Source: an uncultured Phycisphaerales bacterium (GTDB lineage Bacteria > Planctomycetota > Phycisphaerae > WQYP01). From it: 64,000 bases of DNA. Below are positions 18,943 through 21,088 of this stretch, in pieces. The translations under genes and the position numbers were made by a program. The stretch covers positions 1-64,000 of the forward strand of contig CAIMWO010000094.1 in the NCBI GenBank assembly GCA_903845195.1, in the 5' to 3' direction. The notes below the pieces were generated by a model. That model saw only the letters and a program-made list of their open reading frames with translations, did not search any database and had not been told where the DNA came from. Numbering within the stretch: position 1 is the stretch's first letter; every line of letters starts with the position of its first letter.

Positions 18943-19239
18943 ATGGATAGTCCTGGACCACTTTCCGATCCTGACGACTACATTCTCGATCTTTCGAGTG
19001 GCGGCACTCCTGAAGCGGATGCAGGTGCGTCGCGTCCCGTGAAGCAGCAGAATCCAAAAGTTGGGAATACGAAGAGTGTGTATCTTTCGATTCATTTCAA
19101 GTGCTGCAATGTTTATGCACCGATCTACAAGAACGCGGCCGGAACGGCTTATGCCGGTCATTGCCCGCGGTGCCAGCGCCAGCTGTCCGTTCCCATAGGG
19201 CCGGGCGGCACCACGCAGCGCGTTTTTGAAGCGGGGTGA
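18943..19239 (+). CDS. Small zinc-ribbon-like hypothetical protein
   Basis: A 98-residue protein. The first 45 residues are polar. The second half has CC near residues 54-55 (FKCCNVYAPIYK) and a CPRC knuckle near 73-76, which together could bind one zinc. No Shine-Dalgarno is visible before ATG 18943, but an AT-rich TATATA (18932-18937) lies 5 bases upstream, so a leaderless message is possible. Function unknown. Confidence 0.55.
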   Translation: MDSPGPLSDPDDYILDLSSGGTPEADAGASRPVKQQNPKVGNTKSVYLSIHFKCCNVYAPIYKNAAGTAYAGHCPRCQRQLSVPIGPGGTTQRVFEAG

Positions 19240-19254
19240 TTCCATTGGCGCCTC

Positions 19255-19284
19255 TTGACCTTACCCCCTTCGAGTCGATATAAG
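19255..19284 (+). promoter_or_regulatory. Promoter of the leucine leader
   Basis: TTGACC at 19255-19260 and TATAAG at 19279-19284 with an 18-base spacer look like a sigma-70-type promoter. The expected start of transcription falls at or next to the leader-peptide ATG (19292), so this message may be leaderless or nearly so, although AAGGAAAGG also precedes the ATG. Confidence 0.55.
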
Positions 19285-19291
19285 GAAAGGC

Positions 19292-19354
19292 ATGAAACTC
19301 GTGACCCTTCAGCTTCAACTGCAGCTTCTTAGCCTTCTTACGGATCGCTCGTAG
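19292..19354 (+). CDS. leuL: Leucine leader peptide for leuA attenuation
   Basis: A 20-residue peptide, MKLVTLQLQLQLLSLLTDRS, with eight leucines. Six of the eight Leu codons are CTT and one is CTC, whereas neighbouring genes mostly use CTG, so the codons would be read slowly when leucyl-tRNA is short. It is preceded by the purine-rich AAGGAAAGG and ends at TAG 19352-19354. The following hairpins and terminator, and leuA 126 bases downstream of the stop, match the classical leader-peptide attenuator design. Confidence 0.85.
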   Translation: MKLVTLQLQLQLLSLLTDRS

Positions 19355-19418
19355 GGTCACCCAACGTTTTGAATAAAACTGGAACCCCGCGAGTGATCCT
19401 CGCGGGGTTCTTCGTTTT
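19301..19418 (+). promoter_or_regulatory. leuA transcription attenuator
   Basis: Three pairings are visible. Pause stem: 19301-19308 (GTGACCCT) with 19353-19360 (AGGGTCAC). Antiterminator: 19342-19351 (GGATCGCTCG) with 19390-19399 (CGAGTGATCC), 10 pairs including one G-U. Terminator: 19382-19393 with 19399-19410, a 12-bp GC-rich stem with a 5-nt loop followed by TTCGTTTTTT. The antiterminator and terminator share 19390-19393 and the loop, so they exclude each other. A ribosome stalled on the Leu codons leaves 19342-19351 free; one at the stop codon covers it and lets the terminator form. Confidence 0.82.
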
Positions 19419-19480
19419 TTGGGATAATGTCAGCCCCAGAGCCCCGCAGCCGGACGCTCGCTCTATTTTCAGGAGTCGCC

Positions 19481-21088
19481 ATGGAAACGCCCGCTCAATC
19501 CTCCCCCCCCCAGCCCACCCCCCCCGCCACTGCCGGTCATTCGCAGGGTGGGGAACTCATCCGCATCTTTGACACGACGCTCCGCGATGGGGAGCAGTCG
19601 CCGGGGGCGTCGATGAACCTCAAGGAGAAGCTGGAGATTGCGCGGGCGCTGGAACAGCTCGGCGTGGACATCATCGAGGCGGGATTTCCGATCACCAGCC
19701 AGGGGGATTTTGATGCGGTGACTGCGATCTCATCGGAGATTACAGGCGCGACCATCGCCGGTCTGGCGCGGTGCACGGAGAAGGATGTGCGGCGTGCGGG
19801 GGAAGCGGTCAAGCATGCCAAGAAGGGACGCATTCACGTGTTCTGCGCCACCAGCAAGATTCACCGCGAGTTCAAGCTGAAGAAGGCCAAGGATGAGATC
19901 ATCCGGATGACGACGGAGAATGTGCGCCTGGCGCGCGAGTATGTGGACGATGTGGAATTTTCGCCGGAGGACGCGTCGCGGACGGAGCACGATTACCTGG
20001 CGGAAGTGGTGCATGCGGCGATCGAGGCGGGGGCGACGACGATCAATTGCCCGGATACCGTCGGCTTCATCACGCCGGCAGAATATCGCATCATGTTTGA
20101 GTACCTGATCGCCCATGTGCCGGGCGCGAAGAATGTGATTTTCTCGACGCATTGCCACAATGATCTGGGGCTCGCGGTGGCGAACTCGCTGGCGGGCGTG
20201 CAGGGCGGCGCGCGGCAGGTGGAATGCACGGTCAACGGCATCGGCGAGCGGGCGGGGAATGCGTCGCTGGAAGAGATCGTCATGGCCATCCGCACGCGCC
20301 ACGACCAATACCCGTATGCCACGCGCATCCAGACGAAGAAGCTGGTGCCCACATCGCGGCTGGTTTCTTCGCTCTCCGGATTGCACGTGCAGCGCAATAA
20401 GGCGATTGTGGGCGAGAACGCGTTTGCACACGAGTCCGGCATTCACCAGGACGGCATGCTCAAGAACAAGTCCACGTATGAAATCATGCTGCCGACTGAT
20501 GTGGGGTGGGCGCGGTCGGAAAATGTGCTCGGAAAACACTCCGGTAGGCATGCGTTCAAGACGCGCCTGGAAGAACTGGGCCTGCGTTTGAATGATGACG
20601 TCCTCAATAAGTCTTTCGAGCAGTTCAAGACGCTGTGCGACAAGAAGAAAGAAATTTACGATGAGGACCTCGAGGCGATCGTCGAGGACCAGTTTGAAAA
20701 TGTGGAACAACTGTTCAAGCTCAAGAGCCTGCAAGTTGTCGCCTCGACCAATGGGACTCCGACGGCGACCGTGACGCTGGTGGATTCCGGCGGCGCAGAG
20801 ATCACCGATGCGGCGACCGGCGATGGGCCGATCGATGCGATGTTTGCGGTGATTCAGCGTATTACGCAGATCAGCGCGACGCTGGTGAATTACCAGGTGC
20901 GCTCGGTGACGGGCGGTAAAGAGGCCCAGGGCGAGGCGGTGGTCGAACTCATGCACTCGGATCGGAAGGTACGCGGCCGGGGCGTGTCGACGGACATTCT
21001 TGAGGCGTCGGCGAAGGCGTACCTGGCGGCGATCAACCGCATTCGGACGCTAACGAAGAAGACTGTGAGCCAGGGGACGCCGATATGA
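19481..21088 (+). CDS. leuA: 2-isopropylmalate synthase
   Basis: About 535 residues. It condenses acetyl-CoA with 2-oxoisovalerate in the first committed step of leucine synthesis. AGGAG at 19471-19475 fixes ATG 19481. After about 25 Pro/Ser-rich residues comes the TIM-barrel start RIFDTTLRDGEQSPG; the metal-binding HCHND motif (near residue 225) and GIGERAGN (near 254) are present. The C-terminal regulatory domain for leucine feedback starts around residue 400. The attenuator upstream gives a second layer of leucine control. No leuB, leuC or leuD is adjacent. Confidence 0.94.
   Translation: METPAQSSPPQPTPPATAGHSQGGELIRIFDTTLRDGEQSPGASMNLKEKLEIARALEQLGVDIIEAGFPITSQGDFDAVTAISSEITGATIAGLARCTEKDVRRAGEAVKHAKKGRIHVFCATSKIHREFKLKKAKDEIIRMTTENVRLAREYVDDVEFSPEDASRTEHDYLAEVVHAAIEAGATTINCPDTVGFITPAEYRIMFEYLIAHVPGAKNVIFSTHCHNDLGLAVANSLAGVQGGARQVECTVNGIGERAGNASLEEIVMAIRTRHDQYPYATRIQTKKLVPTSRLVSSLSGLHVQRNKAIVGENAFAHESGIHQDGMLKNKSTYEIMLPTDVGWARSENVLGKHSGRHAFKTRLEELGLRLNDDVLNKSFEQFKTLCDKKKEIYDEDLEAIVEDQFENVEQLFKLKSLQVVASTNGTPTATVTLVDSGGAEITDAATGDGPIDAMFAVIQRITQISATLVNYQVRSVTGGKEAQGEAVVELMHSDRKVRGRGVSTDILEASAKAYLAAINRIRTLTKKTVSQGTPI

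Follow-up and report, generated by a model that had tools for sequence, protein, structure and literature searches.

Classical leucine attenuation is textbook knowledge in Enterobacteria. The DNA analysed here, a stretch of 64,000 nucleotides from a planctomycete genome (hereafter, the window), raises the question of whether the same regulatory logic governs a leuA gene in this phylum, since an earlier note had read a leader-peptide attenuator directly ahead of it. According to our analysis, the leader is with high probability a leucine-specific transcription attenuator acting via translation of its leader peptide. The gene that it would regulate, apparently monocistronic, is leuA, whose product scores 707 bits against TIGR00973 (cut-off 598.7); the gene that follows lies on the opposite strand and belongs to the URO-D family. 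Just upstream of the leader, on the same strand as leuA, a 98-residue ORF with cysteine pairs (18943-19239) has no match in Pfam or NCBIfam. The parts of the locus are the following.

19255 to 19284, + strand: promoter read from the sequence, with the -35 hexamer TTGACC at 19255-19260, an 18-nt spacer, and the -10 hexamer TATAAG at 19279-19284
19292 to 19354, + strand: leader ORF encoding MKLVTLQLQLQLLSLLTDRS, 20 codons with 8 Leu, ending in the TAG stop codon at 19352-19354
19301 to 19308, + strand: region 1, GUGACCCU, the exact complement of 19353-19360 (8 pairs)
19342 to 19360, + strand: region 2, of which 19342-19357 is the antiterminator 5' strand and spans the stop codon, while 19353-19360 also pairs with region 1
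19381 to 19399, + strand: region 3, comprising the antiterminator 3' strand (19384-19399) and the terminator 5' arm (19381-19393)
19399 to 19411, + strand: region 4, the terminator 3' arm, forming 13 pairs with 19381-19393
19412 to 19420, + strand: U tract of the terminator, UCGUUUUUU, read from the sequence
19471 to 19475, + strand: Shine-Dalgarno sequence of leuA, AGGAG, read from the sequence
19481 to 21088, + strand: leuA, encoding 2-isopropylmalate synthase (NCBIfam TIGR00973; Pfam HMGL-like and LeuA_dimer)

Six of the eight Leu codons of the leader ORF are CTT, one is CTC, and one is CTG, whereas of the 157 Leu codons in seven neighbouring genes, 15 are CTT and 76 are CTG; the codon contrast described in the earlier note is therefore confirmed, and a bias of this kind would sharpen the response to one tRNA-Leu. 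The promoter that had been proposed ahead of the ORF can be read directly, and its motif also precedes the leaders of relatives. It was not called in a generic promoter scan of the window, because TTGACC-N18-TATAAG falls outside the scan rule, under which the second hexamer must end in T. As a sequence motif, a strong sigma-70-type promoter lies upstream of 59 of 68 leaders, compared with 39 of 340 shuffles. The -10 hexamer ends 6 to 9 nt before the start codon in 18 of these 59 promoter-bearing leaders, the window included, a gap from which transcription is expected to begin on the start codon or beside it; the remaining ones have a gap of 10 to 61 nt, and some of them carry an AAAGGGA-like Shine-Dalgarno sequence. 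The 7 nt read between the -10 hexamer and the ATG in the window imply a leaderless leader ORF. The leader transcript in the window thus probably starts at or within 1 to 2 nt of the start codon, and the ORF is probably leaderless both here and in about a quarter of the relatives, a form of leader peptide for which trpL of Sinorhizobium meliloti provides a precedent (PMC7298713). Leaders thus seem to have changed their mode of initiation, being leaderless in some cases and led in others. The conserved promoter 5' of the ORF speaks against transcription starting downstream of 19355.

Downstream of the promoter, the leader harbors the three pairings expected of an attenuator. The pause stem 19301-19308/19353-19360 of the earlier note is exact, with 8 pairs, and folds with -18.9 kcal/mol (z -3.0). 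The antiterminator, previously delimited as 19342-19351/19390-19399, is real, with 9 Watson-Crick pairs and 1 G-U pair in that interval, and extends to 19342-19357/19384-19399, joining the final codons and stop of the ORF to the 5' arm and loop of the terminator; 15 of these 16 positions are paired, and the hairpin folds with -30.2 kcal/mol (z -5.6). Its 5' strand had been said to end at the stop codon; it is indeed placed there, but it spans the TAG at 19352-19354 instead of ending at it. The terminator, reported earlier as 19382-19393/19399-19410 with a T-run, comprises 13 pairs at 19381-19393/19399-19411, is followed by TTCGTTTTTT, and folds with -25.5 kcal/mol (z -5.7), while the z score of the whole-leader fold is -3.9. 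Since one strand is common to both structures, the terminator and the antiterminator are mutually exclusive.

These parts suggest the following course of events. RNA polymerase would start at about 19290-19292, and a ribosome would immediately begin on the Leu-rich ORF, probably unaided by a Shine-Dalgarno sequence. With ample charged tRNA-Leu, the ribosome reaching the UAG would cover about 19342-19365 and, as we infer from the geometry, mask the 5' strand of the antiterminator, so that the terminator at 19381-19411 would form before leuA. With uncharged tRNA-Leu, stalling on the CUU, CUC, or CUG codons would remove region 1 and leave region 2 free for region 3, with read-through into leuA as the predicted outcome. 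When the leader is not translated, region 1 would pair with region 2, which would be protected, and termination would occur by default. Among the leaders of the phylum, a stem analogous to the 1:2 stem was found at p<=0.05 in 12 of 51, where about 2.6 are expected, and this element is therefore only moderately supported across the phylum.

Whether the arrangement is kept was inspected in the order to which the window belongs, represented by 28 genomes, the window's own counted. This leuA is present in 25 of them. The upstream DNA could be read at the loci of 23 relatives, and every one of these harbors a Leu-rich ORF, its stop codon, and a terminator, the latter in the form ACCC[TC]GCGAG...CTCGCGGGG or a variant of it. 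The covariance model R1 gave one match of E 1e-9 or better per genome in all 25 genomes, each adjoining leuA, and no match that strong in the three order genomes without this leuA; four of these matches (G398, G399, G400, and G409) are sequences outside the model-building set. As the strong matches occur solely next to leuA and once per genome, the element belongs to leuA. Weaker matches were also obtained in genomes of the order and the class, and those inspected looked like ordinary G+C-rich terminators or coding sequence at places other than leuA, or were the terminator itself read in the opposite direction. No convincing leader of such kind was found at ilvB and trpE of the same order.

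The peptide sequence varies freely between genera, while the run of Leu codons persists. This pattern bears on the proposal that the terminated leader RNA also acts in trans, as a small RNA or as a peptide, such that cis attenuation would be only part of its function. A probable leaderless start combined with a strong terminator would release an RNA of about 120 nt, and rnTrpL and peTrpL of S. meliloti are a precedent for a trans role (PMC7298713); however, the peptide is not conserved beyond its Leu content, which argues against a peptide function, and we deem such an additional role unlikely. Some relatives have only 4 Leu in 20 to 24 codons, two of them together with Val and Ile (LVLIPIAI), and in these low-Leu relatives the specificity for leucine may be broader. 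In L126 and L127 (genomes G407 and G406), the leader peptide LVLIPIAIGNRS mixes Leu, Val, and Ile in place of a pure Leu run, a composition possibly reflecting a widening to branched-chain amino acids.

Beyond the order, we surveyed another 127 regions upstream of leuA from the phylum with a strict test, which calls for a Leu-enriched ORF and, after it, a terminator with a folding energy of -14 kcal/mol or lower. The test was passed by 39 of the 127 regions and by none of 603 controls (127 reverse complements, 254 dinucleotide shuffles, and 222 random windows taken from leuA loci). In family f32, 20 of 23 members passed, and the other three have the leader in a weaker or laxer form; 6 of 7 passed in family f73, as did most members of families f4 and f5, which belong to the window's own class, taken here to be Phycisphaerae. 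No passes occurred among the members examined of families f50, f54, f95, and f17. Named records with the leader include Planctomycetota MAGs (L004-L007) as well as members of Phycisphaerales (L008), Pirellulales (L010), and Phycisphaerae (L014), with a Lentisphaerae record (L018) as a weaker case. A 4-Leu ORF with a terminator in Limnoglobus of the Gemmataceae (L011) was considered too weak to claim.

Absence from the controls, together with the occurrence as a single copy per genome, at leuA only and order-wide, also weighs on the possibility that a constitutive terminator insulates leuA from the gene upstream and that the Leu-rich ORF is there by chance. Such insulation would be in keeping with the same-strand ORF at 18943-19239, which ends 52 nt upstream. 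However, the promoter precedes the terminator, and an insulating terminator in this position would block leuA's own transcription; we regard this possibility as highly improbable.

The survey also brought up leuA loci with other arrangements. Members of f50 (L142, L143, L149, L154, and others) and of f54 (L094, L096, L097, L104, and L111) carry the same leuA without a terminator-type leader, and in L149 the Leu-rich ORF MKNLYSLLPLRGLTYVLYLLL lacks a clear terminator. Other Phycisphaerae families (f6 and f7, of the same class as the window) have a Leu leader of a different kind before leuA, seen in L203, L205, L216, and L234 and possibly in L212 of f3. The leader peptides of this second type end in LLLLRL or LLLLRP and have a short hairpin around the stop codon, for example TGCGCC-nGTAG-GGCGCA, without the TAGGG/terminator pairing; in L216, CCACTTTCGAGGTGGATTTTTT is found further down.

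The position of the antiterminator was then compared in 66 leaders with two anchor points, the stop codon and the CCC of the terminator 5' arm. The best register has its centre at the stop codon of the leader, in most cases UAG, and 9.48 of its 13 positions are paired, whereas the runner-up among the 17 registers reaches 6.41. Roughly one leader in four lies outside this fixed register, and L105 (genome G321) is one that does not fit it. The paired sequences differ between groups, TCGCTCnTAGGGTT pairing with AACCCTGCGAGCGA in the order, CGCTGGATAGGGC with GCCCTGTCCAGCG in f5, and AGGTCTTAGG with CCTGAGACC in f32. Position -4 is a C-G pair in 28 leaders, a G-C pair in 22, and an A-U or U-A pair in 4. 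Combining each stop region with its own arm, as opposed to swapped ones, gave 148 of 238 at the cluster level where 111.8 were expected, and none of 5000 permutations reached a value as high. In the class-level alignment A2, anchored by MAFFT and fitted to neither structure, covariation was 0.186 for the antiterminator (0.101 in shuffles; maximum of 0.138 when slid) and 0.306 for the terminator (0.163 in shuffles; maximum of 0.122 when slid). Comparison with related leuA leaders thus found both the Leu codons and the pairings conserved, and the classical reading of the earlier note is supported by a Leu ORF, a terminator, and a stop-codon-centred antiterminator that are kept throughout the order and across many families of the phylum.

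A geometry about the stop codon that is common to the leaders is what control by the ribosome predicts. Pairing conservation by itself is no proof of such control, and the leader RNA could be a protein- or metabolite-responsive element in which the Leu ORF is incidental or tunes ribosome loading only. Caution on this point comes from Streptomyces coelicolor, where a Leu-rich ORF also precedes leuA and the effects of Leu-codon mutations were inconsistent with classical attenuation (PMC1262725), a warning against deducing function from a Leu-rich ORF alone. However, the only parts common to the leaders are the stop codon with TAGGG and the terminator arms, and no unpaired conserved core able to bind a ligand was seen among the leaders compared. 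Moreover, Leu content is kept though peptide and RNA sequence change, the antiterminator sits on the stop codon in most clades, and searches of Rfam, including Leu_leader (RF00512), riboswitches, and T-box, returned no relevant match at the gathering score or at E<=1. We therefore deem a ligand-responsive element very unlikely and maintain attenuation by leader-peptide translation as the reading of this leader.

As to its descent, a LeuA tree built by a quick method groups the planctomycete proteins with one from Lentisphaerae and one from Myxococcota, apart from those of Alphaproteobacteria (support 97), and the leader, mapped as a label on this tree, requires about five changes. The simplest explanation is a largely vertical inheritance within Planctomycetota, accompanied by losses. 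An independent gain in Phycisphaerae and Planctomycetia is a possible but less likely course, as the register common to the leaders favours a single origin. Since alphaproteobacterial sequences are among the closest LeuA proteins from outside the planctomycetes, joint transfer of leuA and leader from Alphaproteobacteria was also weighed; it is not supported, in view of the separate planctomycete clade and of the different layout of the alphaproteobacterial leaders. The LeuA of the Lentisphaerae record L018 (bin.508) groups with planctomycete LeuA on a long branch, and its leader has Leu codons, TAGGGG, and a terminator; this may reflect a gene-plus-leader transfer or a mislabelled bin.

We tentatively propose, at somewhat less than even chances, that the attenuator dates back to an ancestor shared by Phycisphaerae and Planctomycetia and still functions with one geometry, the stop codon lying inside the antiterminator, which would imply coupling across much of the phylum. 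A working attenuator requires transcription-translation coupling. Separation of the two processes was once argued for Gemmata obscuriglobus, as cited in a later article (Gottshall et al. 2014, in PMC5394234), and the leader offers a direct genetic test of coupling in bacteria of this kind. Genetic tools are available for one tractable planctomycete, Planctopirus limnophila (PMC5394234).

In agreement with the earlier note, which knew of no description in this phylum, we found none of attenuation in planctomycetes in the open-access literature searched, and no matching family in Rfam. The leader-gene survey of Korolev et al. counts short upstream ORFs of Planctomycetes and concerns reinitiation at short distances, with no mention of leuA or leucine (PMC4833913). 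The mechanism itself is already known; its occurrence in Planctomycetota is apparently new. Such an occurrence would widen the range of classical Leu attenuation and offer a rule for how a key biosynthetic gene is regulated in planctomycetes, many of them uncultured and some cultured.

The leader in the window shares with enterobacterial leuL a Leu-rich ORF, alternative 1:2, 2:3, and 3:4 pairings, and a terminator before leuA. It differs in lacking a match to the corresponding Rfam family, in an antiterminator that spans the stop codon in a fixed register, in a target gene that seems to stand alone, and in an ORF that is probably leaderless. With trpL/rnTrpL of S. meliloti it has in common a leaderless ORF beginning at the first base of the transcript and a terminator-antiterminator switch (PMC7298713), although Trp codons and trpE(G) are found there and Leu codons and leuA here. 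The alphaproteobacterial leuA leaders (L046, L049, and L067) likewise have a short Leu-rich ORF right before leuA and a hairpin, but their stop codon is itself the point where the hairpin arm CCCCTGAGGG starts, the TAGGG/antiterminator register is missing, and their LeuA proteins fall in a separate clade; the ORFs of these three end in SRP, INP, or IRP, with a TGA stop that opens a hairpin of the CCCCTGAGGG...CTCAGGGG type before leuA. Finally, the actinobacterial LEU element also places a Leu-rich upstream ORF before leuA, but it forms a pseudoknot whose base stem pairs the Leu codons with the leuA Shine-Dalgarno sequence (PMC1262725), whereas the window has instead an intrinsic terminator and an antiterminator placed on the stop codon.
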